This document shows positions 54,986 to 62,757 of a stretch of 64,000 nt of DNA, one piece after another; position 1 is the first letter of the stretch; the number at the start of each line of letters is the position of its first letter. The translations under genes and the position numbers were made by a program. Under the pieces are notes generated by a model, which had not been told where the DNA came from, searched no databases, and worked only from the letters and a program-made list of their open reading frames with translations. Source of the DNA: Candidatus Hydrothermarchaeum profundi (GTDB lineage: Archaea > Hydrothermarchaeota > Hydrothermarchaeia > Hydrothermarchaeales > Hydrothermarchaeaceae); NCBI GenBank assembly GCA_002011125.2, contig MTMF02000009.1, positions 1,766,989 to 1,830,988 on the forward strand. The letters are read 5' to 3'.

Positions 54986-56260
54986 TTATAGATAACAAAC
55001 TGGAGCGAACATAATAAGTGTATTATTAACTTTTTCCTTACCCCAGAAATCTTTTGTAACTACCAACGCTCTTTTTGGTTTGTATGTCTTGATGAAACTC
55101 CTCAGGCTTCTTGAAATCTTCGGTTTCTTAAATGTCTGATATTTAACTTCTATCGGAATCACCTGATTATTTACTCTAAGTACAAAATCAACTTCTGCCT
55201 TTGCTATGGTTCTCCAGTAATTTATTGTACTGCTAGGAAAGCTATTCCTCAAGCAGAGAAAAACAAAGTTTTCAACCAACGTCCCAGAGTCTATCCTTTT
55301 CTCAATGGAACTGAAGTTGTCAGTTATATAATTCCTCAGTCCCAAATCATAGAAATATACTTTAGGAACTTTCTTCAGCTCTGTTATTGGATTCCTATAA
55401 AAAGGCTGAATCAGTTTTATTATATATGTCTCTGATAGTATCGAAATTATCCTTTTTAATTCTTTATAATAAATCTGACATGTCAGGCAGATGTCATTGT
55501 AATTTATCAAATTTCCTATAAGAGTGGCCAAGACCCTAACCACACATCTGTACTTAAATGCATCACTTATTTTGAGAAATTCTATAACATCCTTTGAGAT
55601 ATATGTGTCGTAAATGTTCTTTAATATCATCCTCTTGGTTTCAAAGTCTTCTGCTTTTATAACAGCAGGATATCCTCCAAAAGTCACGTATTCATTAAAC
55701 AATGGCGTAAGTTCTTTCAAGAAAATATCTTTTTCTACAGAGACTTTGCCTTTTAGTAAGAATTTTCTAATGCAATTATTTCTATTTTCATAGATATTTG
55801 CGAGCCTAGAATTTTTTGCGACCAAGAATTCATGAAAACTAAAGGGAAATAACTCAAAGAAAAATACTCTTCCAACCAAAAATTTAGCCATCGCTCCACT
55901 AAGCTCTAGGGAAGAACTACCAGTAACTATAAATTTCACATTATCAAAACTATCATACAATAACTTGAGCTTTTTTCCAGGATCCCTAACATAGTGGTAC
56001 TCATCAAGTAGAAGATAGTATTTACCTTCCGTCAAAAGGAAACTCCGTATATATTCTTTAGGATTTACTTCAAATGCTTCGAGAATATCTGGATCTTCAA
56101 AATTTAGGTAAACTACATTTTCTCTTACCTTTCTTTCTAATATTTTTAGAATAGTAGTTTTGCCAGATTGCCTTGGGCCTTTGATAGCATATGCTTCTTT
56201 TCTATCCAGCCATTTTATCAGGTATGGTAAAATATCTCTCGGGAATATCTCCTTATTCAT
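54986..56260 (-). CDS. AAA ATPase with DUF4143 domain
   Basis: 424 residues. P-loop AYAIKGPRQSGKTTILKILERK (residues 22-43), Walker B YYLLLDEYHYVRDPGKKLKLLYD, sensor IVTGSSSLELSGAMAKFLVGR, then the DUF4143 region with FYDLGLRNYITDNFSSIEKRIDSGTLVENFVFLCL and a PD-(D/E)xK-like end (KAEVDFVLRVNNQVIPIEVKYQ). This common archaeal/bacterial family is of unknown function, often in toxin or mobile neighbourhoods; the terminal D-(x)n-E-x-K suggests a nuclease fold. It stands alone between a hypothetical gene and tRNA-Pro. Start ATG 56260. Confidence 0.9.
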   Translation of the reverse strand: MNKEIFPRDILPYLIKWLDRKEAYAIKGPRQSGKTTILKILERKVRENVVYLNFEDPDILEAFEVNPKEYIRSFLLTEGKYYLLLDEYHYVRDPGKKLKLLYDSFDNVKFIVTGSSSLELSGAMAKFLVGRVFFFELFPFSFHEFLVAKNSRLANIYENRNNCIRKFLLKGKVSVEKDIFLKELTPLFNEYVTFGGYPAVIKAEDFETKRMILKNIYDTYISKDVIEFLKISDAFKYRCVVRVLATLIGNLINYNDICLTCQIYYKELKRIISILSETYIIKLIQPFYRNPITELKKVPKVYFYDLGLRNYITDNFSSIEKRIDSGTLVENFVFLCLRNSFPSSTINYWRTIAKAEVDFVLRVNNQVIPIEVKYQTFKKPKISRSLRSFIKTYKPKRALVVTKDFWGKEKVNNTLIMFAPVCYL

Positions 56261-56430: not shown

Positions 56431-56505
56431 TGGGGCCATCCGGATTCGAACCGGAGTCCATGGCTCCCAAAGCCACGAGGATCGACCAAGCTACCCTATG
56501 GCCCC
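56431..56505 (-). tRNA. tRNA-Pro (TGG)
   Basis: On the reverse strand acceptor arms GGGGCCA and TGGCCCC enclose a full cloverleaf; anticodon loop TTTGGGA gives anticodon TGG (proline, CCA), and the T-arm is CTCCGGTTCGAATCCGGAT. The discriminator is A, and CCA is not encoded. No intron is seen. It lies downstream of the S-layer terminator on the same strand. Confidence 0.95.
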
Positions 56506-56581: not shown

Positions 56582-56627
56582 AATAAAAAATTAAAAAAAG
56601 AAAAAATAGAAGGCATATATGCCTTCT
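56582..56627 (-). terminator. Strong intrinsic terminator of the S-layer gene
   Basis: A perfect 20-base palindrome at 56608-56627 (arms AGAAGGCATA / TATGCCTTCT) overlaps the last base of the S-layer stop codon. On the reverse strand it is followed by a U-rich tract with runs of six and seven T. This is expected for a very highly expressed gene. Confidence 0.75.
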
Positions 56628-59122
56628 TAAAGTGCAGCTGCTAGAGCATCTGCAGCCGCCTTTGTTGCCTCTCTGTTCTTACCAGCGACAATTATGCCGG
56701 TAAATCCAGTAGAAGGATAGTCGCTTACTAGCTCTATATCTCCATCACTAGTATACCAATCCACTTTAGACTTACCAGCAGTCACAAGCTCTGCTACAAG
56801 ACTATTAGCAACGGGTCCACCAATTAACACGAGATTCATATTCGTGCTAGCGGTGTCTTCATCGACTATCTCTAGCTCCGGAATCTTAGTCTCAGCTGCT
56901 CCTGTAGCAGAAACTGTGAAGGAGCTGGTGTCATCATCCACTATAGGCTCGTAGTCAGAATTAGAATCCTTCAACTTGGTACCACTAGCCACCGAGACAC
57001 TCTTCTTACGAACAACCTTGAGCTTCCTCGCCAAAGACCAGTCAAGCTGATACTGAGTACCCGGGATATCCACCTTATCATCCTTAACCAAAGAGATAGG
57101 ATCACTCAACAACACAAGCTTGTTAGCACCACTAGTATACGAGTTACTCCCAGCAGCAAAGTCGGTGTCATTCACCTGAGCCTCATAATAGCCCAGTGCA
57201 CCAGACTGATCATCAGAAACCTCGAAAATCTGTGAAGACTCAGTCAACCTGACCTCAATCGAATCAGCTGTGCCAGAACTTGCATATGCCCAGATCTTAT
57301 AGGCATCAAAGGCATCAGAGTTATCAGTAACATCCGAAGTAATGTCCTTCGGGCTCAGCTGAGAAAGAGTCAAAGGCAACTGATACTGAACCTCAGTACC
57401 GTCAATAATAACAAGATACCCTGTACTCGCACCTGAAGCTGACTTGATAAACTGCATTTTCTTAGAACCAGAGATAACCACGGCATTAGCAGCATCAATA
57501 GAAGTCGTATAATACAGGCTCTTCGTTATAGCCGGACCCATCTTAACGGTCTGACCATTATTAGTCAAATCAGTAACCAAATAATCAGTGCCCTTAATCG
57601 TCACAACAGAGCCCTCAACACTCGAAATATCAATAACCTCCGCCATCTGCACATCGCCAGAAGTACCGTCAATGACATACACCGCATTATAGAGCTCATA
57701 GTCATCAGCACTCGTAAGATCACCGTCAGCATTGTCATCAAAATACAAGCTACCGCTCAAATTCCTAAGCTCATCAGCAACACCGCTCAAACTATTAGTA
57801 GTCGTAGCCATAGTCGTACCAGTCCAAATCGCAGAAGCAGTTCCATCATCATCAAGCTCGTTCACTGTATAATCAAACTTGATATCACCACCAACTAACG
57901 ATACTATGAAGGAGCTGGTGTCATCATCCACTATAGGCTCGTAGTCAGAATTAGAATCCTTCAACTTGGTACCACTAGCCACCGAGACACTCTTCTTACG
58001 AACAACCTTGAGCTTCCTCGCCAAAGACCAGTCAAGCTGATACTGAGTACCCGGGATATCCACCTTATCATCCTTAACCAAAGAGATAGGATCACTCAAC
58101 AACACAAGCTTGTTAGCACCACTAGTATACGAGTTACTCCCAGCAGCAAAGTCGGTGTCATTCACCTGAGCCTCATAATAGCCCAGTGCACCAGACTGAT
58201 CATCAGAAACCTCGAAAATCTGTGAAGACTCAGTCAACCTGACCTCAATCGAATCAGCTGTGCCAGAACTTGCATATGCCCAGATCTTATAGGCATCAAA
58301 GGCATCAGAGTTATCAGTAACATCCGAAGTAATGTCCTTCGGGCTCAGCTGAGAAAGAGTCAAAGGCAACTGATACTGAACCTCAGTACCGTCAATAATA
58401 ACAAGATACCCTGTACTCGCACCTGAAGCTGACTTGATAAACTGCATTTTCTTAGAACCAGAGATAACCACGGCATTAGCAGCATCAATAGAAGTCGTAT
58501 AATACAGGCTCTTCGTTATAGCCGGACCCATCTTAACGGTCTGACCATTATTAGTCAAATCAGTAACCAAATAATCAGTGCCCTTAATCGTCACAACAGA
58601 GCCCTCAACACTCGAAATATCAATAACCTCCGCCATCTGCACATCGCCAGAAGTACCGTCAATGACATACACCGCATTATAGAGCTCATAGTCATCAGCA
58701 CTCGTAAGATCACCGTCAGCATTGTCATCAAAATACAAGCTACCGCTCAAATTCCTAAGCTCATCAGCAACACCGCTCAAACTATTAGTAGTCGTAGCCA
58801 TAGTCGTACCAGTCCAAATCGCAGAAGCAGTTCCATCATCATCAAGCTCGTTCACTGTATAATCAAACTTGATATCACCACCGGGCACGGTGTATGTGAG
58901 TTTCGTCTTAACTGCGTCAGCTATAATTTGAGCACTCGCAGTATCTGCTACCTTACCCGGGGCATCCTTACCCACTACTAATTGGGCTTTCGCTACTCCT
59001 TTATCAGCAAGCATCGAAGCCTTAAAATCCGACGGTACTGTTACCGCCGCAGCCATTCCGATAGTAGCCCCTATAAATAAGGCCCCAGTCGCAATGGCTC
59101 CTATCTTTTTCACATTTACCAT
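56627..59122 (-). CDS. S-layer protein (methanococcal type) with an internal 330-residue tandem duplication
   Basis: 831 residues. The start MVNVKKIGAIATGALFIGATIGMAAA and the block VTVPSDFKASMLADKGVAKAQLVVGKDAP are the archaeal S-layer N-terminus (signal plus first domain). The C-terminal domain NLVLIGGPVANSLVAEL...GIIVAGKNREATKAAADALAAAL matches the S-layer C-terminal domain. Between them a 330-residue unit (starting GGDIKFDYTVNELDDDG, ending SDYEPIVDDDTSSF) occurs twice in tandem, identical in protein and apparently in DNA. Without one copy the protein would be about 501 residues, near the usual methanococcal length. The promoter and ribosome site (AGAGGAGGT) are strong. It would form the outer crystalline lattice. 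Confidence 0.92.
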   Translation of the reverse strand: MVNVKKIGAIATGALFIGATIGMAAAVTVPSDFKASMLADKGVAKAQLVVGKDAPGKVADTASAQIIADAVKTKLTYTVPGGDIKFDYTVNELDDDGTASAIWTGTTMATTTNSLSGVADELRNLSGSLYFDDNADGDLTSADDYELYNAVYVIDGTSGDVQMAEVIDISSVEGSVVTIKGTDYLVTDLTNNGQTVKMGPAITKSLYYTTSIDAANAVVISGSKKMQFIKSASGASTGYLVIIDGTEVQYQLPLTLSQLSPKDITSDVTDNSDAFDAYKIWAYASSGTADSIEVRLTESSQIFEVSDDQSGALGYYEAQVNDTDFAAGSNSYTSGANKLVLLSDPISLVKDDKVDIPGTQYQLDWSLARKLKVVRKKSVSVASGTKLKDSNSDYEPIVDDDTSSFIVSLVGGDIKFDYTVNELDDDGTASAIWTGTTMATTTNSLSGVADELRNLSGSLYFDDNADGDLTSADDYELYNAVYVIDGTSGDVQMAEVIDISSVEGSVVTIKGTDYLVTDLTNNGQTVKMGPAITKSLYYTTSIDAANAVVISGSKKMQFIKSASGASTGYLVIIDGTEVQYQLPLTLSQLSPKDITSDVTDNSDAFDAYKIWAYASSGTADSIEVRLTESSQIFEVSDDQSGALGYYEAQVNDTDFAAGSNSYTSGANKLVLLSDPISLVKDDKVDIPGTQYQLDWSLARKLKVVRKKSVSVASGTKLKDSNSDYEPIVDDDTSSFTVSATGAAETKIPELEIVDEDTASTNMNLVLIGGPVANSLVAELVTAGKSKVDWYTSDGDIELVSDYPSTGFTGIIVAGKNREATKAAADALAAAL
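56917..58882. repeat. Direct tandem repeat, 990-bp unit, two copies, within the S-layer gene
   Basis: Copy one runs 56917-57892 and copy two 57907-58882, each 976 bases with no difference found by line-by-line reading; the offset is exactly 990 bases, so the frame is kept. Between them lie 14 unique bases coding for the junction (VSLVGG). This is either a recent in-frame duplication, active gene homogenisation, or an assembly join. Confidence 0.92.
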
Positions 59123-59272: not shown

Positions 59273-61024
59273 ATGAACAAAGCAATTATATTATTGGTAT
59301 TACTTTCATCTCTATCTGTAGTATACGGCGACATGTTTGAAACAACTAGAGTTGGCATAGGACCTCCACCCTACTCAATTGTAGCTTTAGACACGGATGG
59401 TGACGGAATTCAAGATACAGCAGTTATTGGCACCGCTTTAAAGGCTTTTGCCTTGGGTTATCAAGGGTGGGAAGTCTCTGTAACTAGTGTAAGAAGCATT
59501 GGAAAGGTTGATTTGGACTCCGATGGTCTCTTACAAGAAGTTGTTATAGCTGGTGATAATATTGTAGCTGTAGATTCTAATGGTAATGAACTATGGAGGA
59601 AAACTACTAGTAGTTATTCAGCTGTTGCAGCTGATCTCAATGGAGATGGAAAACTAAATGAAGTCGTCGTAGGAGGATGGAATGCTGTATATGCTTATGA
59701 TAGCTCTGGGGCATTGCTATGGGAATACACCCAATTAGAGGGGGGAGTTAATCATCTAGTTGCCTTAAAGGACCGTATAATAGCCGGGTCAGGGAAAGTA
59801 CTTCATGGGATAACATTAGATGGGGACCCAGCTTGGAGCAAGGTTTTTCAAGAAAATATTGGAGCCATAACAAAGATAGAGGCTGACGGCCAAGAATGTG
59901 TGGTAGTCGCTTTATTAGACGGTAGCGTTAACGCATATAGTCCTTATGGTGTTAGCAAAGATTGGAACTTTAAACAAAACCACGAAGGCTCTAAAATAAC
60001 GATGATAGCATTTGATAGAAATTCACGAGGGAAACTTGACCATGTTTTATTTAATCTTGACTTTAAGGTATATATAGTCAATTCAAAAGGCTTTCAAGCC
60101 GGAAGCATGTCTATCGCCTTCTCCACCGCTTTGTCCACTGCAGATTTCGATGGGGACGGAATACTAGATGACGTAGTAATAGGAAAGGAGAGTTCAAATA
60201 GTCCTGGAGATCTTTTCGCCTATAGCGCCTTTGGACAGGAACTCGGAATCCTTGAAGGAGTAGGAGGTACGAGAATAGCGGCTATAGATTACGATTTTGA
60301 TTCAAGAGCGGATGACATCATTGTCCTAAGTAAATATGATGCCAGCGCTCATATAATAATCTCTACAATAAGCGATAATACAACTGCTACACAGCCTATA
60401 ACAACTCCTCCGCCTACAACCCGGGCCCCAGTAACTACAGCTCCACCAACTACTGCTCCTCCTCCAACAACTACTATCTCAGTTGACCTCGGACCAGATA
60501 GGACGATTACCGAGGGAGAAGAGATAACTTTAACACCAACAGCAACAGCCACGACTGGAGGTAAAATAGTCTCATATATATGGACTGAAGATGGCAAACT
60601 ACTGGGGGATACCCCAACCCTAACTCTCTCGCTAGAAGAAGGTACTCACAATATCTCGCTAAAAATTACTGACAGCTTCGGAGCTACATCCACGGACAGC
60701 ATTATAATAACCGTTAAACCAAGAGAAAAGGTACCTTCAAGCTCAGACTCAGACGAAGATGGATTAACAGATGAACAAGAAAAGATACTCGGTACTGATC
60801 CCTTTAAACCCGATACTGACGGAGACGGAATAATAGACTCGAAAGATCCTAATCCTCTTGTGCCTGAAGAAGAAGGTTTCTCCATCCCCTCGCTAGGAGG
60901 TATAAGCCCCTACCTCGGGTACTTGAAATGGGTTGCACTAGCTGTTGTGGGAGTTATATTAATCATATATATAAGAGAAAAAATTCTAGACTTCCTATGG
61001 GAAAGACGACAGGAATGGGAATAA
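59273..61024 (+). CDS. Cell-surface beta-propeller (FG-GAP-like) protein with PKD-type domain, calcium-binding repeats and C-terminal TM anchor
   Basis: 583 residues. It has a signal peptide ([18 protein letters not shown]) and about six FG-GAP/VCBS-like calcium loops such as [31 protein letters not shown] and [16 protein letters not shown] Pro/Thr-rich spacer (about 375-400, [14 protein letters not shown]) leads to a PKD/Ig-like domain ([21 protein letters not shown]). Then come thrombospondin-3-like calcium motifs ([34 protein letters not shown]) and a transmembrane helix ([16 protein letters not shown]), ending RRQEWE. It is divergent from the S-layer gene and probably stands in or above the S-layer. 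It is paralogous to the next gene. Confidence 0.85.
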
Positions 61025-61056
61025 ATTTATATGCAAGCATAAAGGTGCTTTATCTT

Positions 61057-62757
61057 ATGAAACACGTGTTTTTAGTTCTTATTCCTCTAATCCTCCTAGC
61101 GCAGGGTGTATATGCAGATGAACTGACGGAGAAATTTGATAAAGACTACACTTCATATGAAGAATCTATTACGGGGAGGGCTTCAATGGCAATTATAGAC
61201 TTTGACTCTGATGGAAAAATGGACGGCGTCGCTATCCTAGATGTAAAGAGTAGTAGAGTTCTTGCCATAAGCTTTAGCGGCCCTTTAAATCTCCTTTGGA
61301 AGAAATCCGTTAAGCCTGGGTTGACTGAGGGGATAATAATAGCCGCAGATATAACTGGAGATGGACGTAAAAATGAAGTCGTGGTAGGTTCCGGTAAGAC
61401 CTACGTCTTTGACTCCTCAGGAAATGTAGAATGGACTTTTGAAAGTGGAGCGGCAGTATATTCTATAGCAACTGCTGATCTTGACGAAGATGGCACTCCC
61501 AATGACTTAGTTATAGGAGCTCATGGGGTATTATATGTTGTTGACCACAATGGAAAGTCTCTATGGAATATCACTGGACTTGCCGCAAGTGTTGAAGCAG
61601 TGACATCTCTTGACCTAAATAAAAACGGTAAACCTGAAGGAGTCGCGTATGCCACAAGCAAGTTTCTCTATGTCACAGATTCAGAGGGTAAGCAACTTTG
61701 GACTAGAAGCCTCCCAAAAAATATATTCTCGGCGATCTCACTTGACCTAGACGGGGATGGATACTCCTCAGAAATAGTAGTGGCATCGTCTAATGGCAAT
61801 GTTACTGCATATGACTCCGAGGGAAACTACTTGTGGAGTTATTTTGCTTACACAAGCGAGGGCAGGAGAATAAAGCTTTACAAGGCAGACCTGGATTCAG
61901 ACGGTATTGTAAATAATGTGATAATCCAAGCAGATGTTTTGCATGCCTTAAATCCAGACGGTACTAATAAATGGAAATTCAACGTAGGAATAGATTCTTT
62001 ATCCTCTATAGACTTTAACTCAGACGGATCTTATGAGGGATTAATCGGAGGCACTAAGTCAAAAATATATGCTATTAACCCCCTCGGTCAACAGGTAGGA
62101 TTTTATGATGAGGATAGTCAGAAGTTTAAGCCCTATAATAAGACTGGAGCTGAGATAGCGATAAGTGCAGCAGACTTAGATGGAGATGGCTATCTAGATG
62201 ACGTAATAGGCATAGGAAAAAACACAATATTCGCTTTGAACCATATATCTCTCGCACCGGCGCCCGAAACTCCTCCTCCAGTAACTGAGATAAAAGTCGA
62301 CTTAGGACCTGATATAGAAGTCACAGAGGGTGCTGTGGTTACCTTGACTGCCGAGGCTACGCCAAGCACAGCATCTGGAAGAATAGAACTGTATAAGTGG
62401 AGCGTGGATGGAGTAGATAAAAGCGCTGGAAGGGACGTAAAGGCCTTCAGCATAACACTTCCACCAGGCACCCATACCATAAAAGTTTCAGTCGTAGACG
62501 ACAGAGGAGAAAAAGCTGAAGATACGGTCACAATCACCGTGAAGCCGGTTTCAACTCCTCTACCGCAAACTACTGCGCCACCAACTACCACGCCAATAGA
62601 GACTACCCCGCCCCCAACAACTGTGCCTCCACTGGCTGAAGAGAAACCTCCTATTCCATGGTTATATCTCCTAATTGGTGTGATAATAGGCATCGTGGTA
62701 GTAGGGATAATTGCATTGGTAATGTTAAGAGGTAAATCCGGGGAAGAGTGGGAATAA
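61057..62757 (+). CDS. Second cell-surface beta-propeller protein with PKD-type domain and TM anchor
   Basis: About 566 residues from ATG 61057 (signal peptide KHVFLVLIPLILLAQGVYA); a longer frame from 60928 is rejected as it runs through the upstream gene's end without a signal. Eight propeller loops are visible (IDFDSDGKMDGVAIL, ADITGDGRKNEVVVG, LDLDGDGYSSEIVVA and others), then a PKD-like domain (VDLGPDIEVTEGAVVTLTAEA), a Pro/Thr spacer (PPTTTPIETTPPPTT) and a C-terminal helix (WLYLLIGVIIGIVVVGIIALVML). It ends GEEWE, like its paralogue. The two lie 32 bases apart and probably form an operon. The calcium motifs of the paralogue's tail are missing. Confidence 0.85.
   Translation: MKHVFLVLIPLILLAQGVYADELTEKFDKDYTSYEESITGRASMAIIDFDSDGKMDGVAILDVKSSRVLAISFSGPLNLLWKKSVKPGLTEGIIIAADITGDGRKNEVVVGSGKTYVFDSSGNVEWTFESGAAVYSIATADLDEDGTPNDLVIGAHGVLYVVDHNGKSLWNITGLAASVEAVTSLDLNKNGKPEGVAYATSKFLYVTDSEGKQLWTRSLPKNIFSAISLDLDGDGYSSEIVVASSNGNVTAYDSEGNYLWSYFAYTSEGRRIKLYKADLDSDGIVNNVIIQADVLHALNPDGTNKWKFNVGIDSLSSIDFNSDGSYEGLIGGTKSKIYAINPLGQQVGFYDEDSQKFKPYNKTGAEIAISAADLDGDGYLDDVIGIGKNTIFALNHISLAPAPETPPPVTEIKVDLGPDIEVTEGAVVTLTAEATPSTASGRIELYKWSVDGVDKSAGRDVKAFSITLPPGTHTIKVSVVDDRGEKAEDTVTITVKPVSTPLPQTTAPPTTTPIETTPPPTTVPPLAEEKPPIPWLYLLIGVIIGIVVVGIIALVMLRGKSGEEWE

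Follow-up and report, generated by a model that had tools for sequence, protein, structure and literature searches.

We find that the gene for the predicted main S-layer protein of a Hydrothermarchaeota archaeon holds its presumed lattice-forming section twice, in tandem and with identical DNA over almost 1 kb, and we consider it probable, at about 75%, that recombination in Hydrothermarchaeota repeatedly equalizes such units while the unit itself diverges fast between genomes. The window, a 64-kb stretch of DNA, comes from one genome (G000, the window genome) of a class represented in our genome collection by 23 Hydrothermarchaeota genomes. What would be new is a doubled lattice section homogenized inside an S-layer gene across several families of a single phylum. 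This combination was absent from the open-licence papers searched, which also contained nothing about the G000 gene or about S-layers evolving in concert in Hydrothermarchaeota. The elements are already known separately, as partial gene conversion (mtrA), as S-layers with tandem domains (Methanosarcina) and as near-identical repeats in surface proteins (Periscope).

An S-layer consists of a single abundant protein, every contact of which has to fit, and the exposed part of this protein evolves fast. Through intragenic conversion, both contact partners could change at once by a simple route, and the gene described here makes this idea testable from sequence.

An exact in-frame repeat inside a predicted S-layer gene

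The longest exact direct repeat in the window is 976 bp long and 100% identical between its two copies (56917-57892 and 57907-58882), exactly where the original prediction had placed it. The second-longest direct repeat measures 20 bp and shuffled windows reached a maximum of 17 bp, which excludes chance as the origin of the long repeat. Its period, from start to start, is 990 nt, so that the unit is, as predicted, a multiple of three: 330 codons in frame, with both copies wholly inside a single open reading frame (ORF) of 831 aa on the minus strand (56627-59122). The sequences flanking the repeat are unrelated at the repeat offset, also in line with the prediction, with 22-48% identity per 60-nt window, and no further occurrence of the unit was found in the 2.19-Mb assembly. 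Synonymous sites show no difference between the copies either (upper 95% bound of 0.3% divergence), an identity beyond what selection at the protein level alone would give.

Read from its N terminus on the minus strand, the protein begins with a part of 80 residues (58883-59122) that comprises a signal peptide at about residues 1-25, recognized by inspection, and the N-terminal half of a split anchor. This is followed by two units of 330 codons each, unit 1 at residues 81-410 (57893-58882) and unit 2 at residues 411-740 (56903-57892), which contain the exact copies at 57907-58882 and 56917-57892, respectively. The C-terminal half of the anchor (residues 741-831) and the stop codon occupy 56627-56902. 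The exact copies are parted by a private spacer of 14 nt (57893-57906, minus strand) that is present in neither flank. It codes for the end of FIVSLV before GGDIKF, and the corresponding end of unit 2 reads FTVSAT; F-x-V-S is kept between the two, using different, synonymous codons for V and S.

The protein matches Pfam family PF05124 (S_layer_C) over residues 39-830 with an E value of 1.2e-16 and 61.3 bits, the curated cut-off being 23.9. Its C-terminal part matches the chain of PDB 9FSA by HMM (E = 8.4e-8), and a Foldseek search with the predicted model returned 9fsa as the best PDB match (E = 2.7e-4, probability 1.00). The family's anchor as solved for Methanococcus voltae comprises residues 24-75 and 484-576 (PDB 9FSA; PMC11410804). 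The full-length prediction for the G000 protein has a mean pLDDT of 43.6 and is confident almost only at residues of about 31-80 and 741-831, with block values of 73-92 within residues 31-80 and 67-91 in the C-terminal anchor half, whereas one unit modelled alone reached a mean pLDDT of 70.7. The best explanation is that the protein is the main S-layer, or cell-coat, protein of the archaeon, with lattice formation predicted. Since the confidently modelled ends and the 9FSA match frame the doubled section, the latter is taken as the counterpart of the lattice-forming section of relatives, and the 2 x 330 residues presumably correspond to that section, doubled within the split anchor. The predicted picture of a 330-residue doubled middle in an otherwise normal S-layer protein is borne out, and the proposed change in subunit size by two thirds is arithmetically right, from about 501 to 831 aa.

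Downstream of the gene lie an AAA_14/DUF4143 ATPase gene (54986-56260) and a tRNA gene (56431-56505), both on the minus strand. Adjoining the S-layer gene, genes on the plus strand encode secreted proteins of the FG-GAP/beta-propeller and PKD types (59273-61024 and 60928-62757). Similar secreted FG-GAP/PKD-type neighbours of the S-layer gene occur in two relatives, G013 (L050, 8561-10135) and G005 (L054, 3954-5969), possibly marking a conserved surface-protein neighbourhood.

Related genomes and the age of the duplication

When the contigs of the relatives were scanned, a single-protein query matched none and a query built from an alignment did. A tandem doubling at the homologous place is present in G021, from another order of the class, with 1051 bp exact and a period of 1080, and in G013 (Ca. 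Pyrohabitans jungbluthii), from another family, with 726 bp exact and a period of 942. Together with G000, these are the only three genomes in which both units are complete; in a fourth, G018, a contig edge leaves one unit truncated to its end, followed by the complete next unit, with 131 bp exact. Two units are therefore a recurrent state in Hydrothermarchaeota and not an oddity of G000. The number of units in relatives, which the original prediction had named as informative, does vary: G002 and G009 hold one unit each, which means that not every genome has the doubling, barring collapse of those assemblies, as may have happened to some single-unit genes. One-unit forms measure 489-533 aa and two-unit forms 796-898 aa in the related genomes, among which no three-unit form was found. 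G006 carries a relative that lacks the N-terminal anchor, on a contig that stops about 40 residues into an apparent second unit. Tandem units exist without homogenization too, given that a related secreted protein from a genome of the same family (G001; a 465-aa ORF in L012) has two that have diverged, to 44% over 84 aa.

The units share 91-99% protein identity within a genome compared with 20-42% between genomes, and they group by genome rather than by position. Copies within genomes being more alike than copies between genomes is the pattern of concerted evolution. The anchor halves are conserved, at 53-80% identity across this set of genomes, against 26-41% for the unit in the same comparison.

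The edges of the identical tracts are informative about the order of events. In G013, the first 185 nt or so of the two units are 64% identical, with 65 of 181 sites mismatched plus indels, against 0 of 726 in the core (Fisher 6e-51); at the 3' edge the mismatches number 4 of 28 against 0 of 726 (p = 1.5e-6). The corresponding counts are 5 of 24 against 0 of 1051 at the G021 edge (p = 4e-9) and 4 of 9 against 0 of 976 at the G000 edge (p = 3e-9), the last on a stretch that is very short and hand-picked. Sharp edges between identical and diverged sequence, as in a mosaic, are thus clear in G013 and G021 and are seen in G000 on 14 nt only.

The unconverted unit starts of G013 are 57% identical in protein between unit 1 and unit 2, similar to the starts of units from different species: across the species and genera of the family, unit starts share 41-58% protein identity, with one close pair at 92%. 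By this sequence comparison, the duplication in G013 is as old as a species-level divergence and the identity of its core is new, so that in that genome the duplication is older than the homogenized state. With a duplication of that age, 726 bp without a synonymous change call for homogenization in G013. These diverged starts beside 726 bp of identity led us to reject a single recent duplication as a full account. The original prediction had left a very recent event, gene conversion and an assembly artefact side by side as explanations; conversion, or unequal exchange, is the one favoured here, a one-off recent duplication is not, and an artefact is unlikely.

Alternative explanations and a proposed model of homogenization within the gene

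We regard it as very improbable that an assembler wrote a single unit twice. Repeats of about 1 kb are indeed difficult for short reads, and the short-read relatives do break at the S-layer gene: a contig end cuts it in 7 of 12 genomes, compared with 1 of 20 for valS (Fisher p = 0.0016), and in BMS3Abin16 (G010) two contigs end inside the gene and overlap by exactly 127 bases (L055, 6844-6970; L013, 1-127). A k-mer length of 127 is typical, and such an overlap would be expected had the contig been split at a repeated k-mer. These cuts and the overlap fit long exact repeats breaking short-read assemblies, although contig breaks at S-layer genes can result from strain variation as well. When the start of the repeat was predicted from contig ends and k-mer length, the outcome was plausible in G016 and G015 and not in G005, and it was left out of the evidence. 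In G000, however, the spacer that connects the copies is absent from both flanks, and reads must therefore have bridged the end of one unit and the start of the next through it. The arrangement recurs in independent assemblies whose sequences are distinct, and outside the core the two copies of G013 are not alike; furthermore, the window lies within a 1.9-Mb contig, consistent with good resolution. At least two units in G000 are thus likely to be real. Because breakage or collapse of the gene is likely in short-read assemblies, records of coat proteins from this phylum are probably incomplete, with the number of units sometimes wrong.

Independent and very recent tandem duplications in each lineage, arising by unequal crossing-over at short similar flanking stretches, would account for one-unit relatives (G002 and G009) and for the identity of nearly the whole period in G000, and the stretches in question, GVGGD-like at the start of a unit and AVGGE-like at its end, have in common a VGG-type motif at which recombination could start. 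Taken by itself, G000, in which the only diverged stretch between the copies is 14 nt, could indeed be a recent duplication with an odd junction. Yet the G013 unit starts differ at 36% of sites plus indels beside 726 identical bp, and in G021 and G013, immediately next to perfect identity, 14-21% of sites distinguish the spacer from the end of unit 2. This account would also require the same place to have been hit by a recent event three times, once in each of three families, and we consider it improbable. A length- or phase-variable surface switch, in which recombination alternates between one-unit, two-unit and longer coats and the variability itself is selected, adds a functional claim to homogenization and is compatible with it, so the confidence placed in the two overlaps. 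It would fit the one-unit and two-unit forms of the related genomes, and in bacterial surface genes with near-identical tandem repeats variation by homologous recombination has been proposed (Periscope proteins; PMC9704523). The single-unit forms may, however, be collapsed assemblies, and a longer, three-unit form is missing from the relatives examined, which leaves the selected switch rather doubtful.

In the favoured explanation, homogenization within the gene, the two chain ends would together form the anchor domain and the lattice-forming middle would be inserted between them, twice in tandem. Recombination between the units would equalize them, in the simplest case by gene conversion within the gene and now and then by unequal exchange, and the same process would have equalized the copies in G000; RadA-type recombination is a candidate agent. 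In such a short array, unequal exchange would have a similar outcome to gene conversion. Adjacent identical units could let each molecule present the same contact surface twice, and identity would be favoured if neighbouring units need the same lattice contacts, so that both copies change together. Where like units contact each other, altering one copy would be of use only when the other follows, and conversion would supply just that.

The same recombination would sometimes delete or add a unit, so that alleles with one, two and three units may be expected in populations. From the sequences, the coat would then be variable in length through loss and gain of units, which does not imply a regulated switch. 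The broadest version, that an ancient double-unit S-layer is phylum-wide and continuously homogenized, with both lattice partners changing together and with one-, two- and three-unit coats within populations, is one that we put forward tentatively, as possible rather than probable.

Comparison with known surface proteins

Methanococcal and thermococcal S-layer proteins of the PF05124 family have the same plan of a signal peptide, a split anchor and a middle inserted between its halves (9FSA; PMC11410804). In contrast to the loci sampled from these groups, the middle section in G000 is doubled with identical DNA: the sampled Thermococci- and Methanococci-type PF05124 loci showed no long exact repeat of the whole middle section. 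Protein self-comparison of 96 ORFs from PF05124 loci gave internal repeats in three, of which one was marginal and the remaining two were large proteins of another kind, in a control that is approximate, many loci holding part of the gene only. One 1355-aa ORF of S_layer_C type (L172, from G197) has an internal repeat with 88% protein identity, a period of 708 nt and a 97-bp exact stretch.

Methanosarcina has an S-layer protein with tandem DUF1608 domains (PF07752; MA0829, PDB 3U2G and 3U2H; PMC3361143). As in G000, two tandem copies of a beta-rich domain stand in an S-layer protein; unlike the split anchor of G000, the anchor there is a C-terminal membrane helix (PMC3361143). The model of a single G000 unit has 3U2G as its best PDB match (Foldseek E = 1.3e-5, probability 1.00, TM-score of about 0.3), and comparison of the unit with the DUF1608 fold gives Z scores of 5.7-5.9 over 207-209 residues, within the range of chance arrangements. 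Profile-profile comparison of the unit with DUF1608 (hhalign) gave a probability of 0.2%, no match, and PF07752 matched neither the window genome nor any other of the 23 Hydrothermarchaeota genomes, with none for the units at E values up to 1. Membership of the unit in DUF1608 is ruled out by these HMM and profile comparisons; the fold resemblance remains as a lead. A likeness to viral fusion proteins (VIA-align), confined to residues 120-221 with a Z score of about 6, was taken as a common beta arrangement and set aside.

Two further systems resemble parts of the proposed process. The methanogen genes mtrA-1 and mtrA-2 have undergone long-lasting partial gene conversion, likewise after an old archaeal duplication, with one part homogenized and the adjoining part distinct (PMC4632066); they are, however, two genes of an operon for an enzyme subunit, whereas the S-layer case concerns two units in one gene for a coat protein. 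Periscope and other bacterial surface proteins share with G000 their near-identical tandem repeats, with homologous recombination as the proposed mechanism (PMC8201768, PMC9704523), and differ in that their repeats form rod-like stalks that project a functional domain, the G000 unit being presumed to be a lattice section between anchor halves.

At the DNA level, the tandem DUF1608 copies of Methanosarcina have diverged, in contrast to the identical copies of G000: among 30 Methanosarcinales-type tandem DUF1608 loci, the longest exact stretch was 82 bp and most had none of at least 17 bp at that spacing. Taken together with the PF05124 control, strong homogenization is thus seen only in Hydrothermarchaeota. 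In two of the Methanosarcinales-type loci (L201 and L205), tandem DUF1608 copies with a period of 822 have exact stretches of 82, 65 and 43 bp in common, perhaps reflecting weak homogenization there too.
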